Positions 43,954-51,333 of a DNA stretch of 60,810 bases are shown here, piece by piece; within the stretch, counting starts at the first letter, position 1, and each line of letters opens with the position of its first letter. This stretch comes from Boletus sp. NGJ (lineage: Eukaryota; Basidiomycota; Agaricomycetes; Boletales; Boletaceae). The notes beneath the pieces were generated by a model. That model saw nothing but the letters and a program-made list of their open reading frames with translations, was not told where the DNA came from and made no database searches. The position numbers and the translations under genes were made by a program. Location of the stretch: NCBI GenBank assembly GCA_019096195.1, contig JAGTXK010000194.1:1-60810 (forward strand), read 5' to 3'.

Positions 43954-44547
43954 TGTTACGTTTCGTCCTTTTTCCTCCTTTTTCTTCCCTTCAATCGTCC
44001 TCGTCCTCACCTCGTCCTCTTGAATTCCCGTTGGACCATTTACTACACAGTGAGACTCCGTGTAGTCAAGGCCGACCTTCGCACCTCGTGCATCATTTGT
44101 ACTTCTACGCCGACTCCACACGAGGGATCCCTTCTATTTCCCACTCCATAGGATCTCCCCGGTGCTGCGGCTTACTCATCCTTTTCCCACGCCTCAGTAT
44201 GTATATAAACCCAGCCTCTGTAGTCGATCCCCCAATTTACACCTACTTGGTGAACTTTCATCATCGCCTCTCCGGACCTCTAAAAGTCGTCGTTCCACTT
44301 CGAGTGAACGCTTCTTCTACGTCTCGTCTTCACTCTCTGAGTGAACCCTTGACTACGACTAGGAAGACCCTTTGTCGTCGAACCCTTGACCCCGCGACGA
44401 GGAAGACCCTCTGTCGCCGAACCCTTGACCCAACCAAGGGCCACCTTTGTCCCGTAGCTCCCTGAAGCTACCTCTCTCGACTCCGGTAGCTCGTCGCTAC
44501 TCGACCATCCAAGTTAACGCCTGTCCCTACCCGGGGTAGTCGTAACA
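43954..44547 (+). repeat. Gypsy-2 5' LTR with promoter
   Basis: 594 bp with TGTTAC...GTAACA ends. TATATAAA at 44202-44209. The probable RNA start aatttacacct at 44234-44244 lies 32 bp downstream and matches the PBS in reverse complement. Downstream of it is a diverged direct repeat of aggaagaccctttgtcg/aggaagaccctctgtcg (about 44361 and 44401). Confidence 0.92.
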
Positions 44548-44549
44548 AA

Positions 44550-44560
44550 AGGTGTAAATT
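44550..44560 (+). promoter_or_regulatory. Self-primer binding site of Gypsy-2
   Basis: aggtgtaaatt, starting 2 nt after the 5' LTR, is the exact 11-nt reverse complement of LTR bases 44234-44244, located at the expected transcript start about 32 bp after the TATA box. The 11-nt length is the same as the Tf1 self-primer known from fission yeast. Confidence 0.75.
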
Positions 44561-44621
44561 CTTATATTGAGGTTATCGTTGTCATAACCCTCCACCCACC
44601 ATTGCTCGCCAACGTCCCACC

Positions 44622-45776
44622 TTGAACCCTGCGTGGTGGAACCCTCGTGCACGTGCCGAGACACCTCCCACCGACGACAATTCTTCTGACCAAGAGGGAT
44701 CACCAGACACCGACCTCGACCTTGACCTCCCGTCCCAACAACAACAGGACGCGGCCCTCGATCTGTCACGCCAACTCTCAGATCGCCTACGTTTACCAAG
44801 AACTCCCACACCACCGTCTCTAACACCGTTGACGGCAGTACCCTCATTCTCAGCACCACCCCCTCCCCTGTCACCGATGTCCTCAGCGACTCGACCAACC
44901 GAGCTCCGCATCGGCACCCCCGAAGCCTATGATGGCTCCTTTGACACCTCAGTATCATGGTTGAACACAGTCCAGTTCTACCTCTACGTCAACGCCAAGG
45001 TCTATGACACCGATGCTAAACAGATAGCCTTCGCCCTGTCCTATATGACTAAAGGGCCAGCCCTCACCTGGGCTACCACCTATCGACAAAACGCCATCAA
45101 TGGCATCACCATCACCCTCGGGTCCTTCGCCGACTTCGTCACTGCCTTTGAAAAGGCATTCAAACACCGAGACACCACTGGGAACGCCATCGCTTGGCTG
45201 TCCACCAAACGAATGACCAAGAAACGAGACAACTCGTATTCCCCCCCCCTCATGCAATACACCTCTGAGTTCCAGAACAATGCCGCCCTCGCCAAGATCA
45301 CCGACCCGAACGTCCTCATCGGGTACTATTCCGCTGGAATCCCACCAGGGCTTATGCGACGGATCATGTCCATGGACACCGTACCCACCACCATCGAAGA
45401 ATGGTACTCCCGTGCCATCCACTTCCAAACCCAATGGGAAAGAGCCGATGAAATCGCTAAAAGGAGCAGTAAACCATCCGCGCATACCTACCACTCCTTC
45501 TCTTCGCCCACCTCCTCCAAACCTCGAGACCCTGACGCCATGGACGTCGACGCCGTCTCCATCCCCAAGCTGACCCCCGAAGAGCGAAAACGCTGCTTCG
45601 ACCAAAAACTTTGCTTCCGCTGTCGCCAACCGGGTCACATCACCACGGCATGCACCACCTTCACCTCCCCCATTAGAAAGGTGAAGAACTCCCCTGCCAA
45701 GAAAGTCAGGGTTGTCGAACAAGAAGAGGGAGACTCTGATGGAGAAACCGTCGGACAGGTCTCCTCGGGTTTTTAA
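44622..45776 (+). CDS. gag: Gypsy-2 Gag (capsid/nucleocapsid)
   Basis: Frame open from an in-frame stop at 44568 to TAA 45774-45776. Contains NPAWWNPRARAETPP, an acidic/Pro-rich N-terminus, LRIGTPEAYDGSFDTSVSWL (start of the capsid-like Retrotrans_gag domain), YMTKGPALTWATTY, WERADEIAKR, and a zinc knuckle CFRCRQPGHITTAC (C-x2-C-x4-H-x4-C) at 45612-45653. There is no ATG between the upstream stop and the conserved N-terminal part: the first in-frame ATG is at about 44878 (MSSATRPTE). The true start may therefore be a non-ATG codon, or be supplied by splicing. Forms the virus-like particle and packages the RNA. Pol follows in the -1 frame. Confidence 0.85.
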   Translation: MNPAWWNPRARAETPPTDDNSSDQEGSPDTDLDLDLPSQQQQDAALDLSRQLSDRLRLPRTPTPPSLTPLTAVPSFSAPPPPLSPMSSATRPTELRIGTPEAYDGSFDTSVSWLNTVQFYLYVNAKVYDTDAKQIAFALSYMTKGPALTWATTYRQNAINGITITLGSFADFVTAFEKAFKHRDTTGNAIAWLSTKRMTKKRDNSYSPPLMQYTSEFQNNAALAKITDPNVLIGYYSAGIPPGLMRRIMSMDTVPTTIEEWYSRAIHFQTQWERADEIAKRSSKPSAHTYHSFSSPTSSKPRDPDAMDVDAVSIPKLTPEERKRCFDQKLCFRCRQPGHITTACTTFTSPIRKVKNSPAKKVRVVEQEEGDSDGETVGQVSSGF

Positions 45777-45809
45777 AGAGGGGAACACCTTTGACGCATG
45801 TTTCCCCTT
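45767..45809 (+). promoter_or_regulatory. Predicted -1 ribosomal frameshift signal between gag and pol
   Basis: Heptamer GGGTTTT at 45767-45773, with gag-frame codons GGT TTT followed directly by the gag stop TAA. This fits the X XXY YYZ rule. The -1 frame is open from 45740 and leads into protease. A 6-nt spacer (taaaga) is followed by a stem: ggggaaca (45780-45787) pairs with tgtt...cccc (45799-45807, one bulged t) around an 11-nt loop, with possible extra basal pairs. Not tested experimentally. Confidence 0.65.
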
Positions 45810-48800
45810 CTCTTAGTTGTGCCGCTGTAACAGTAGAATCGAAATTGAAAGGCATTCGCATCCCTGTTCAACTTCTCGTTCCTGCACACGCTAAGAAAGC
45901 CGTCAACACCAGAGCCCTCGTAGATAGCGGCGCGGAAATCTCCTGCGTCGACTATCAGTTCGTGCGAAAGCACAAACTCCCCACCACACGACTTCACACC
46001 CCCATCCGCGTCCGAAACGCTGACACCTCGTTCAACAAGAACGGGGATATCAAGTTCACCTGCGATCTCTTCGTGGACATTAAAGGCGTCCTCATGAGGA
46101 CAACCCTCCACGTCATCTCCTGTGGACAAGAAAACGTCATCCTCGGCCAACCCTGGCTCCGCTCGTGCAACCCAACCATCGACTGGGCAGCTAACACCCT
46201 CACCCTCGATGAAACCCTTGACCAGTCCGCCGACCTCTACCACACAAGGACCAAACCCCTCCCCACCGAGAAAGACGAGTCCGCATCCAGGCCCGGTCAC
46301 ATTGACATCAACCTCCGAACCTGCCACCATCTCCGCGGCTTCCTCCAGAAGGAAACCGAAGAACGAGAGTACCTACGGAATGCGAACCGAAATCGCGTCC
46401 TACACCGAATCATCCGAGGGCAGTACAAGTATGTTGCCGCCTCCACCGTCGCCAAAATCACGGTCGCAACCGAACTTGCTGAGGCCGCTGAGAAGGCCAA
46501 ACCCAAACCAACCCTCCCAGCAGCGTATGCGGATTACGCCTCAGTCTTCTCGAAAGAAGCCACCGACCATGTCCCTCCATCACGCCCCTATGACCACGAA
46601 ATCAACGTCAAAGAGACCTTTGTCCCGAAGATCGGGAAGGTATACCCCCTTTCCCCCCATGAACAGAAAGGTGACCGAAGAGTTCCTTGACGAACACCTC
46701 AAAACGGGAAAAATTCGCCCGTCGACCTCCCCCCAAGCATCCCCTTTCTTCTTCGTCAAAAAGAAGAACGGCGACCTCCGCCCGTGCCAGGACTATCGAT
46801 ACATCAACGAACATACTGTTCGCGACGCCTACCCTCTCCCCTTGGTCTCGAACCTCATCGACAAACTCAAGGGAGCGACAACCTTCACCAAGTTCGACGT
46901 CCGTTGGGGATACAACAACGTACGCATCAAGGATGGTCATCAATGGAAAGCCGCCTTCGTCACACATCGAGGCCTCTATGAACCTACCGTCATGTTCTTC
47001 GGCCTATGCAACTCCCCCGCAACCTTCCAGCGATTCATGAATGACTCCTTCCGAGACATGATCGCCGAAGGCTGGCTCATCATCTACATGGACGACCTCC
47101 TTATCTTCTCCCCAGACGATGCTCTGCATACTGAGCGAACCAAGCGTGTCCTCCAACGGATGACCGAACTCGACCTCCACCTCAAACTTGAAAAATGTAC
47201 CTTCGCCACCGACGAGGTAGAGTACCTCGGCATGATTGTCCGTCCCAACCAATTGGCTATGGACCCTGTCAAACTTGACGGAATCGCCAAATGGCCTGCC
47301 CCTACCAAGGTCACGGGAGTCCGATCGTTCCTGGCTTCGCCAACTTCTACCGGCGATTCATCCCCGACTACTCCACGATCGCCGCCCCCTTATCGACCTC
47401 ACGAAACTCAACCACCCCTGGGCCTGGTCGAGCGAATGCCAGGATGCGTTCGACCACCTTAAACGTCTCTTCCTGGCAAAACCAATCCTTCACCTCCCCG
47501 ACTTCTCCGCCCCCTTCGCCATCGCCACGGACGCCTCGAAGTACGCCACCGGCGCCATCCTCCTGCAGACCGATGCCAACGGTGACTGGCATCCCTGCTC
47601 GTACCTCTCACAGTCCTTCTCCCCCGCCGAACGGAATTACGACATCTACGACCGCGAACTCCTCGCCGTCATCCGCGCACTGAAATCTTGGCGCCACTAC
47701 TTGTATGGCTCCCCCTTCCCCGTACAGGTTTTCACAGATCATAAGAACCTGCTCTACTTTAAGTCCCCCCAAAACCTCAATCGCCGGCAAGCCCGCTGGC
47801 TTCTCGACCTCGCCGATTTTGATCTCAAAATCACCCATGTCCCCGGCCGCCTGCTTGCCGGGCCGGATGCCTTATCCCGTCGCCCCGACCTCATCCCGAC
47901 GACCGACACGGACAATGAGGGCGTCACGCTCCTTCCCCCTTCCATGTTCGTCAACTTGATTGACACCTCGCTGGCATCCCTCATCCAGCGATCCTCCCTG
48001 TCCGACCCCCTCGTCCTTCAACACCTCCAGGCAACAGACACCTCGGCACCCGCGTTCCTCCGTGCCCGCCTTTCTGACTGGTCGTACGTGGACGGCCTTC
48101 TATCCTACCGCAACCGCGTCTACGTCCCGCCAGACGACTCCCTCCGGCGCTCCATCCTCCACCGCTGCCACGACCACGAATCAGCTGGTCACCCCGGCTA
48201 CCTGAAAACCCGGCAGCTTGTGTCCGCCGATTTCTGGTGGCCGGGCCTCGCCTCTTATGTCCGCGCCTATGTCTCTGGCTGCCCGTCCTGCCAGCAACAC
48301 AAGGCCAACACGCACCCGACGGTACCCCCCCTGACCCCTATCCGTTCCACTGCCACCCTACCCTTCCGCCAGGTGTCCTGCGATCTCATCACGGACCTAC
48401 CCCTCTCCTCCGGCTTCGATTCACTATTGGTCGTGGTCGACCACGGGCTTACTAAGGGGGTAATTCTATGCCCCACGAAGAAATCAGTCACCGCAGAAGG
48501 AATCGCGACACTCTTCTTCCACAAAGTGTACCTTCGCTTTGGCCTCTATGACAAGATTATCTCCGACTGAGGACCCCAGTTTGCCTCAGCCTTCGCCAAA
48601 GAACTTGGAAAGCTCCTGAAGTACGACCTTTCCCTCTCCACCGCATATCACCCCCAATCCGACAGAGAAACAGAACGGGTCAACCAAGAGATCGAAACTT
48701 ACCTCCGGATCTTCTGCGGCAACGAACCCACTACATGGGCCGAGAAGATCTCTCACGCCGAGTTTACCCATAACCACCGACCCCACTCCGTCACCGGACA

Positions 48801-49446
48801 ATCTCCGTTCTTCCTCCTGATGGGATACAAACCCCGTGCCCTTCCTTCGGTCGTCTCCGACTCCACAATACCCGCTCTAGAAGAGCACATCCAGAAACTC
48901 TCGGCTGCTAGGGACGAAGCCCTAGCCGCACACGAACTCGCACGACAGGTCATGGCCTCTCGTACCCGCCGCGGATTCACCCCATTCAAGAAAGGAGACA
49001 AGGTTTGGCTAGAGGCCAGGAACCTGAAACGCTCCATTGCCGACCCAAAGTTTGCACCAAAACGAGAGGGCCCGTTCACTATCACACACGTCCTATCCCC
49101 TATTGTCTACAAACTCCACCTCCCGACCACGTGGAAGATCCACCCGGTCTTCCACGCATCACTCCTCTCCCCCTGCCACAAGAATACCGTATACGGCAAG
49201 CATTTCATAACACCACCGCCTGAATTAATAGCCAGCGAGGAAGAATACAAAATCGATAAAATCCTACGACATCGCGGCTCCCCGTCTCGCCGTTCCTTCC
49301 TGATCCGATGGAAAGGGTACTCCGCAGAAGAGGATTCTTGGGTCCCCGAGCGGGATCTGAAGCATGCCAAGTCCGCTCTGCTCGACTATAAGAAGCGACA
49401 CCCTCGGACGTTCCCCTCCATCACCTCACCCCAACCCATACCATGA
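45777..49446 (+). pseudogene. pol: Gypsy-2 pol, nearly intact: protease, RT, RNase H, integrase, chromodomain
   Basis: Protease with ALVDSGAEISC (DSG intact, about 45917) and VILGQPWL. Then RT with SPFFFVKKKNGDLRPCQDYR, FDVRWGYNNV and YMDD at 47085-47096. RNase H with ATDASKYATGAIL and FTDHKNLLYF. Integrase with H..H (CHDHESAGHPG) and CPSCQQHK zinc residues, DLITDLPL, the catalytic-loop stretch ISD-GPQF and RVNQEIETYLR. Chromodomain SFLIRWKGYSAEEDSWVPE (about 49294-49350). Defects: an extra A in the run at about 46668-46670; a missing G at about 47333 (FLG-FANFYRRF); a missing C at about 47390 (AAP-LIDLT); TGA 48568-48570 for CGA in SD-R-GPQF. The indels sit in short homopolymers, so sequencing error is possible. 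Ends at TGA 49444-49446, overlapping the next gene. Confidence 0.92.
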
Positions 49447-50402
49447 CCACCCCCTTCGCTGTCGAGACAACGATTTTCTCCAATGCCACCCTGTCTTCCT
49501 CCCCACATTTTCTTTCTACGATACCTGGTAGCCGTCCTTTATCTCCTACTCTCTCCTCTCCTTCGTCACTCTCACGTTCTAACTCCCCTCTTGACGACTA
49601 CTCTCGTCCTCATTCTCCTCTGTTACCTTCTCCCCGCGGCGAACCTCGCCTTCCACGCCCACCGACACCGGTCTCGCTAGCCTCTACCCCGACACCAATC
49701 ATGTCGGTGGACGTCCCTATCTACGCCACACGTCTTCGCAATGACTTCCCAGACCTGGCCGAGGTCACCCGCCTCACTGAAAACCTCGAAGATCCCCGCA
49801 TGGCACTAGGACTCAGGGCCCACCTAGACTATGCCTCCCCCTTATACTCCCTCTACAAGGCATACTTGCAATCAGCCGCCCTAGAGTCCGTCGCCAACCG
49901 TGCCACCACCAACGCCCACCTATCCCTGACCCAACTATGCCTCCGGGGCATATCCGGCGAGCTGAAAGCAGCACTCCTGAACGCCCTCCATCAGCTCGAA
50001 GCCGCCGAGCTCCTGGACGACCTCGACCGATACATGCGGGACCTGGCTAACCGTCCCACCCCAACTATGCCTCCTGCACCCTCCACACCGTCCGCCTCGT
50101 TGTCCCCTCTAGGCGACGAAGAACTTGCAGTCGTCCGCCGCGAAGAAGCCTACTGGACTGGTCGCGGAGGGGCGGTCCCACTGGGACCTTCCCATCCTCG
50201 CTACGCCGAGGCTTGCTATCAATGTCGCCGTCTTGGTCACCTACGCATCCATTGCCCCATTTACCAATGCCCCCAATGCTTGCGTTGGGAACCCGGTCAT
50301 ACTCAAGCACGCTGCCCCCTATGCCGACGTCTGAACCCACAGACCCCGTCGTCTTCGTCCTCATCCTCTGGTCGGGCATCATCCTCATCCCATTCAGCCT
50401 GA
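49443..50402 (+). CDS. Gypsy-2 ORF3: extra 319-aa protein with two zinc knuckles
   Basis: ATG at 49443 overlaps the pol stop as ATGA (49443-49446). Layout: residues 1-85 Ser/Pro-rich and probably disordered; 86-205 helical (YATRLRNDFPDLAEVTRL, LRAHLDYASPLYSLYKAYL, LLNALHQLEAAELLDDLDRY); a Pro-rich linker; EEAYWTGRGGAVPLGPSHPR; then CYQCRRLGHLRIHC (residues 258-271, C-x2-C-x4-H-x4-C) and CPQCLRWEPGHTQARC (276-291, C-x2-C-x6-H-x4-C); a Ser-rich tail. No signal peptide or membrane segment, so not an envelope protein. Uninterrupted, unlike pol. Probably a second nucleic-acid-binding, Gag-like or chaperone protein, translated by termination-reinitiation. Similar knuckle pairs occur, as I recall, in unnamed basidiomycete proteins. 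Function unknown. Confidence 0.8.
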   Translation: MTTPFAVETTIFSNATLSSSPHFLSTIPGSRPLSPTLSSPSSLSRSNSPLDDYSRPHSPLLPSPRGEPRLPRPPTPVSLASTPTPIMSVDVPIYATRLRNDFPDLAEVTRLTENLEDPRMALGLRAHLDYASPLYSLYKAYLQSAALESVANRATTNAHLSLTQLCLRGISGELKAALLNALHQLEAAELLDDLDRYMRDLANRPTPTMPPAPSTPSASLSPLGDEELAVVRREEAYWTGRGGAVPLGPSHPRYAEACYQCRRLGHLRIHCPIYQCPQCLRWEPGHTQARCPLCRRLNPQTPSSSSSSSGRASSSSHSA

Positions 50403-50638
50403 CGTGTACCTCCTCCCCCCATCCGCGGCACCCAACTCGCTTGCCGCCGCTCCTTTTTCCATCGTCTTACCGCGCAGGTTACACGTCAGACCCAATCCAC
50501 TGCACCAACCGACCCCTACGACGACCCAGACATTTTTGACAGCGCAGCCATGAGTAACATGACCGGATCCCCCTGCGGGTCCTATCGCGGTTTGGATTTG
50601 AGACGTTCAGTGGTACTTCACGTGTAACAGGGGGGTAA

Positions 50639-51333
50639 TGTTATGTTTCATCCTTTTTCCTCCTTTTTCTTCCCTTCAATCGTCCTCGTCCTTACCTCGT
50701 CCTCTTGAATTCCCGTTGGACCATTTACTACACAGTGAGACTCCGTGTAGTCAAGGCCAACCTTCGCACCTCGTGCATCATTTGTACTTCTACGCCGACT
50801 CCACACGAGGGATCCCTTCTATTTTCCACTCCATAGGATCTCCCCGGTGCTGCGGCTTACACCTTCGCACCTCATGCATCATTTGTACTTCTACGCCGAC
50901 TCCACACGAGGGATCCCTTCTATTTCCCACTCCATAGGATCTCCCTGGTGCTGCGGCTTACTCATCCTTTTCCCACGCCTCAGTATGTATATAAACCCCA
51001 CCTCTGTAGTCGATCCCCCAATTTACACCTACTTGGTGAACTTTCATCATCGTCTCTCCGGACCTCTAAAAGTCGTCGTTCCACTTCGAGTGAACGCTTC
51101 TTCTACGTCTCGTCTTCACTCTCTGAGTGAACCCTTGACTACGACTAGGAAGACCCTTTGTCGTCGAACCCTTGACCCCACGACGAGGAAGACCCTCTGT
51201 CGCCGAACCCTTGACCCAACCAAGGGTCACCTTTGTCCCGTAGCTCCCAGAAGCTACCGCTCTCGACTCCGGTAGCTTGTCACTACCCGACCATCCAAGT
51301 TAACGCCTGTCCCTACCCGGGGTAGTCGTAACA
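50639..51333 (+). repeat. Gypsy-2 3' LTR with internal duplication
   Basis: 695 bp, TGTTATG...GTAACA, preceded by the polypurine tract acagggggg (50628-50635) and followed by TSD tcttc. Longer than the 5' LTR by exactly 101 bp, owing to a tandem duplication at 50760-50961. TATA box and self-primer string are present here too. Confidence 0.92.
50760..50961 (+). repeat. 101-bp tandem duplication in the Gypsy-2 3' LTR
   Basis: Two units, 50760-50860 and 50861-50961, each beginning accttcgcacctc and ending tgctgcggctt. The units differ at about three sites. The 5' LTR has a single unit. It lies upstream of the TATA box, in the U3 region. Confidence 0.88.

Follow-up and report, generated by a model that had tools for sequence, protein, structure and literature searches.

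A constrained third gene with tandem CCHC knuckles behind pol in a clade of chromovirus-type elements of Boletus sp. NGJ

We analysed a 60,810-nt stretch of DNA from Boletus sp. NGJ (assembly GCA_019096195.1, contig JAGTXK010000194.1, positions 1 to 60,810; hereafter the window), which carries a long terminal repeat (LTR) element at 43954-51333. With an LTR pair, gag, reverse transcriptase (RT) and a chromodomain at the C-terminus of pol, this element is a chromovirus. Downstream of pol lies a third open reading frame (ORF3; 49443-50402, plus strand). Across copies ORF3 is a conserved gene under purifying selection and not a product of chance, and its carriers form one clade by their pol sequences. 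On balance we favour the reading that ORF3 is the third gene of this clade and encodes an accessory nucleic-acid-binding protein, which would be made by termination-reinitiation and handle the RNA of the element.

ORF3 in the window

ORF3 runs uninterrupted for 319 codons to a stop codon at 50400-50402, and 236 nt lie between this stop and the 3' LTR, which begins at 50639. Its ATG (49443-49445) and the TGA of pol (49444-49446) share the tetranucleotide ATGA (49443-49446). A first-pass annotation made from the sequence alone had described the 4-nt overlap, the frame length and a distance of about 235 nt to the LTR, all of which agreed with our counts. It had also proposed an extra coding gene downstream of a pol with a terminal chromodomain, and both the position and the constraint described below bear this out. 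The two knuckles it had noted were found in the sequence and in the alignment at residues 258-271 (C-x2-C-x4-H-x4-C; 50214-50255, plus strand) and at residues 276-291 (C-x2-C-x6-H-x4-C; 50268-50315, plus strand).

The frame had further been taken to be intact, and this had to be revised. Behind the stop codon the ORF3 frame stays open (50403-50627) and encodes a C-terminal tail ending SNMTGSPCGSYRGLD, which longer relatives of 385-386 amino acids carry within one protein. Therefore, the stop in the window is premature and in frame, and it has cost this copy a conserved 65-codon tail (50403-50597, plus strand). The contrast between an intact ORF3 and a broken pol had been read as a hint of selection or youth; this argument fails because the ORF3 of the window is itself cut short, and the signal of selection comes from the family.

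Family copies and purifying selection

A six-frame search with ORF3 of the 32.8 Mb genome to which the window belongs yielded at least 80 matching stretches; such counts are lower bounds, and some copies appear in several pieces. Among the 20 best matches, including the window, 14 had no internal stop and six had one. Among deposited proteins of other sources we found 19 homologues with 28-49% identity.

For the ratio of nonsynonymous to synonymous divergence (dN/dS, NG86 method) we selected 14 copies whose frame is open throughout codons 1-300. The exclusion of broken copies biases the estimate towards constraint, and the shifted-frame controls were taken from the same copies. ORF3 gave a ratio of 0.204, with dN below dS in all 91 pairs, which is far from the value near 1 that the first-pass annotation had named as speaking against the gene. 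The shifted frames gave 0.93 and 1.46. By part, the ratio was 0.67 in the N-terminal arm (codons 1-86), 0.084 in the core (87-204), 0.23 in the linker (205-250) and 0.139 in the knuckle region (255-296; 87 pairs). For 11 of the 14 sequences the 3' piece of pol could be set beside these values, with 0.226 for pol, a similar 0.204 for ORF3 and 0.083 for the ORF3 core.

The purifying selection, together with the 14 unbroken frames among the best 20 matches, places ORF3 beyond chance. An accidental open frame in GC-rich, Ser/Pro-rich DNA would suit the low-complexity arm with its ratio of 0.67, but it is at odds with the core, where the shifted frames reached 1.09 and 3.09, and with the homologues of other sources. 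For the core and the knuckles it was rejected by the comparison with the shifted frames, and we give this explanation practically no credence.

Features of the predicted protein

The arm is Ser/Pro-rich and probably disordered. It is followed by a core with five predicted helices (residues 87-204; 49701-50054, plus strand), and residues 250-319 carry a net charge of +7. Full-length copies would thus encode a disordered arm, a helical core, tandem CCHC knuckles, a basic Ser-rich linker and a short conserved tail. As the first-pass annotation had stated, there is no obvious membrane segment: the highest hydropathy over 19 residues was 0.92 in the window and 1.15 in the sister-clade copy L051. 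ORF3 thus lacks this mark of an envelope-like protein.

A Pfam scan of the window ORF3 returned only zf-CCHC, below the cut-off. The tandem knuckles also matched the RNA-binding protein LIN-28 weakly in a profile comparison (E 0.0066). In the LIN-28 type both knuckles follow C-x2-C-x4-H-x4-C. Two adjacent CCHC knuckles are common to LIN-28 and ORF3, whereas the wider spacing in the second knuckle of ORF3 departs from the LIN-28 pattern. Fold searches of the helical core gave no significant match. ORF3 could also be an old duplicate of Gag, in which a capsid-like helical domain and a nucleocapsid would form a second structural protein; we consider such an origin unlikely. The gag of the window (44877-45776, plus strand) is an open frame with one CCHC knuckle, and its Pfam matches to Ty3_capsid, DUF4939, Retrotrans_gag and zf-CCHC all remained under the cut-off.

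Distribution of ORF3 in the pol phylogeny

An RT search of the genome gave at least 150 rows, of which 67 were paired with ORF3 places, the rule being an ORF3 on the same strand no more than 8 kb downstream. At 71% identity or more to the window RT, ORF3 lay downstream in 33 of 37 rows, the misses being on contigs C98, C77, C128 and C122. A match to the window ORF3 was seen in one of 22 rows at 61-68% identity and in none of eight at 52-55%. Twenty further loci were scanned with a profile of the family: 12 of them (L049-L060) had the double knuckle downstream of pol, with E values from 2.3e-12 to 1.4e-5, and L061-L068 showed none at E values up to 1.

A tree of the C-terminal piece of pol, rooted at the midpoint, comprised 53 tips: seven outgroup loci (L061-L067) and 46 that belong to the ORF3 group or lie close to it. 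Short pieces (L014, L027, L035, L047, L054), the twin L033 and two loci without the piece (L039, L041) were excluded. Shimodaira-Hasegawa-like support was 0.996 for the ORF3 group (46 tips), 0.964 for a sister clade (11 tips) and 0.921 for the window type (35 tips). ORF3 was present in none of the seven outgroup loci. Loss or truncation of ORF3 does occur, since L068, which bore the ORF3 label in the tree by default, stands within the clade and shows no ORF3.

Compared piece by piece with the window, L015, L022 and L045 had only 57-63% identity in the C-terminal piece of pol and about 79-98% in ORF3. This mismatch may reflect either recombination between elements or damage to pol. L032 on contig C117 and L033 on C120 had identical match scores and an identical junction, and they could be a duplication or an assembly duplicate.

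The junction between pol and ORF3

We compared the window with 40 ORF3 loci retrieved from the genome. In 38 of these 41 sequences the end of the chromodomain was readable (not in L035, L039 and L041). At 26 of the 38 junctions ORF3 starts within an ATGA whose TGA is read in the pol frame. Of these, 23 keep the ATG in the frame of the core; L026, L045 and L047 have a later break. L013 and the twins L032 and L033 had an additional, earlier stop in the pol frame. In L014, L021 and L024 the ATGA string was present and an upstream break takes pol out of frame. In one subfamily TAA is followed by ATG 16-19 nt further on (L028, L029, L030, L034 and L037, with an earlier TGA in L030), and in L038, L040, L044 and L048 the gap from stop to ATG was 3 to 34 nt. 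The feature that recurs is a pol stop positioned within ATGA. Conservation of ATGA across copies, as the first-pass annotation had envisaged it, held for the 26 junctions named above and not for one subfamily and the sister clade, where stop and start lie close together instead.

The sister clade and its 55-codon gene

The sister clade was represented by nine RT rows 68% identical to the window, eight of them with frames of at least 1229 codons. Here the pol TGA is followed after 9 nt by a frame of 55 codons (MPQDN...CPYHHTW), whose TAG directly adjoins the ATG of ORF3. This frame lies at positions 991-1155 of L051 (plus strand) and at the same place in L049, L050, L052, L053 and L055-L059. 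The TAG|ATG junction and the string TGGTAGATGAC were present in all 11 sister loci examined (L049-L059). Overlap or closeness of stop and start, one criterion of coupled termination-reinitiation, was found both in the sister clade and, as ATGA, in the window type.

The ratio of nonsynonymous to synonymous differences (pN/pS) of the 55-codon frame was 0.19, against 1.11 and 1.25 in the shifted frames (seven loci, two of them with an internal stop); it is therefore a gene. Its product is rich in Cys and His (C-x-C...C-x2-HH), and a protein search with the 55 residues found no relative. In two deposited homologues of ORF3, P0006 and P0020, the stretch between the chromodomain and ORF3 (TLVLQDRLLPV in P0020) resembles another frame of this gene, TLVLLQDRLLPL, a hint that its DNA may exist outside the host genome as well. 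The case shows how easily small genes of such elements escape notice.

In L050-L053 the ORF3 of the sister clade comprises 447-472 codons; in the remaining seven loci its frame is broken after 17-193. Sister and window-family ORF3 share the knuckles (43 columns, probability 95.8%, E 8e-9), and to our own eye the letters of the two cores also seem to resemble each other. Between L050-L053 and L049, L055 and L056 the first ORF3 codons differ by single-base insertions and deletions, which offset one another in young copies. L069, another copy of the sister clade, has two long overlapping gag-pol frames 5' of the protease, unlike the window.

Expression and function of ORF3

In the reading we favour, ribosomes that end pol would restart at the adjoining or overlapping ORF3 AUG on the full-length RNA; in the sister clade they would do so after terminating the 55-codon gene. 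The knuckles and the basic region may bind the RNA or cDNA of the element itself, and the helical core likely mediates self-association. Beside the single knuckle of Gag, the protein would most likely serve export, dimerisation, packaging or chaperoning of the RNA. The first-pass annotation had suggested an RNA chaperone, a silencing antagonist or a factor for copy-number control as possible roles.

In victoriviruses the stop-start tetranucleotide is AUGA. Coupled termination-reinitiation is established in these viruses and in the non-LTR element SART1, which uses UAAUG (PMC5972666). As at the ORF3 junction, stop and start overlap between two long frames of one RNA. In the systems treated there, however, the coupling joins capsid protein and RNA-dependent RNA polymerase, or ORF1 and ORF2, and has been tested (PMC5972666), whereas here pol and a third frame would be joined and no stable RNA structure was found upstream in six window-type junctions.

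Several observations weigh against the proposal. The overlap is not kept in every subfamily, and most copies continue the ATG with a Thr codon, so that ATGA stems partly from Met-Thr. A model that leaves aside pseudoknots and 18S pairing found no stable RNA fold upstream of ATGA in six window-type junctions (z -0.11 to 1.83); by the same model one sister locus reached z -2.26. Reinitiation behind a frameshifted pol would be expected to give little protein. Three of the 19 deposited relatives (P0006, P0017 and P0020) are predicted as single proteins that include both a chromodomain and ORF3, which could reflect a fusion or an artefact of the gene model. Constraint on the sister ORF3 is weaker, the ratio of 0.54 in its knuckles lying hardly under one shifted-frame control (0.64), and L068 groups with the window type without a detected ORF3.

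The missing upstream structure and the low yield expected behind a frameshifted pol make a separate mRNA the main rival. ORF3 would then be a real gene translated by ordinary scanning of an mRNA of its own, spliced or subgenomic, and its nearness to the pol stop would merely save space. The start context is good, with A at position -3 in 36 of the 38 junctions (the second of two ATGs being taken in L036 and L047), and some subfamilies leave 16-34 nt between stop and start. A precedent exists in CERV, a third protein encoded by the nematode LTR element Cer1, which is required for export of the genomic RNA (PMC10309623). Its mRNA is spliced from five exons, and in this it differs from the arrangement proposed for ORF3, as it does in its C4-type candidate finger (PMC10309623). 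On the other hand, stop and start repeatedly overlap or nearly do so in distant subfamilies with different flanking DNA, and the window type has no AG immediately before the ATG. We regard a separate mRNA as possible but as the less probable route.

Alternatively, ORF3 might be reached by a -1 ribosomal frameshift from pol to give a Pol-ORF3 fusion. ORF3 is indeed in the -1 frame relative to pol and open for 51 nt upstream of its ATG, in the window pol likewise lies in the -1 frame to gag, with G GGT TTT just before the gag stop, and the three predicted fusions would fit. Inspection by eye, however, revealed no X XXY YYZ heptamer in the overlap of the window, the ATG and its context are conserved, and the sister clade has stops in the pol frame itself; such a frameshift is quite improbable.

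Termination-reinitiation also permits a bolder reading, which we offer tentatively: three or four genes may be read in series from one RNA, with a -1 shift from gag to pol and then one or two restarts, in the sister clade by way of the 55-residue protein, leading to a Gag-independent RNA-binding factor with tandem knuckles, for instance an adaptor for export or packaging.

A 2010 study of fungal LTR elements depicts an "additional ORF with unknown function" (PMC2864245). As here, it concerns fungal Gypsy-type elements including chromoviruses with a frame beyond gag and pol, which may or may not be the same gene as ORF3; the passages searched give neither knuckles nor a stop-start layout (PMC2864245). 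For LTR elements of bdelloid rotifers the ORF3s named in the abstract are env-like, a GDSL esterase or a DEDDy exonuclease (PMC5408684). They too lie 3' of pol and are not all envelopes, whereas none of those named there is a knuckle protein (PMC5408684). The literature passages searched contained no description of the ORF3 family, the 55-codon gene or the serial layout. If our reading is true, these LTR elements possess a conserved gene for handling RNA that is placed like CERV and the accessory genes of retroviruses and is translated through stop-start coupling downstream of pol. Near-identical copies of the sister family in the host genome make expression and function testable in the natural host.

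Other features of the window element

The 5' LTR (TGTTA...TAACA; 43954-44547, plus strand) is 97.5-97.7% identical to the 3' LTR (50639-51333, plus strand) in the aligned pieces, and the latter contains an additional 101-bp tandem copy that the 5' LTR does not have. A purine-rich stretch adjoining the 3' LTR (50629-50638, plus strand) is a candidate polypurine tract. The chromodomain that ends pol (49246-49398, plus strand) scored 42.6 bits with Pfam Chromo (cut-off 25.1); in the last piece of pol it spans residues 143-193. Pol itself (45740-49446, plus strand) is broken; a stop-to-stop listing gives the pieces 45740-46690, 46098-47462, 47236-48570 and 48571-49446, and the RT piece was read in translation at 46701-47300 (plus strand). 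Where the first-pass annotation had counted four lesions, the six-frame listing contains three breaks, namely two frame changes and an in-frame stop at 48568-48570. The heptamer GGGTTTT at 45767-45773 lies in the gag frame and directly adjoins the TAA that ends gag; pol is in the -1 frame, and the heptamer is a candidate site for the frameshift from gag to pol.
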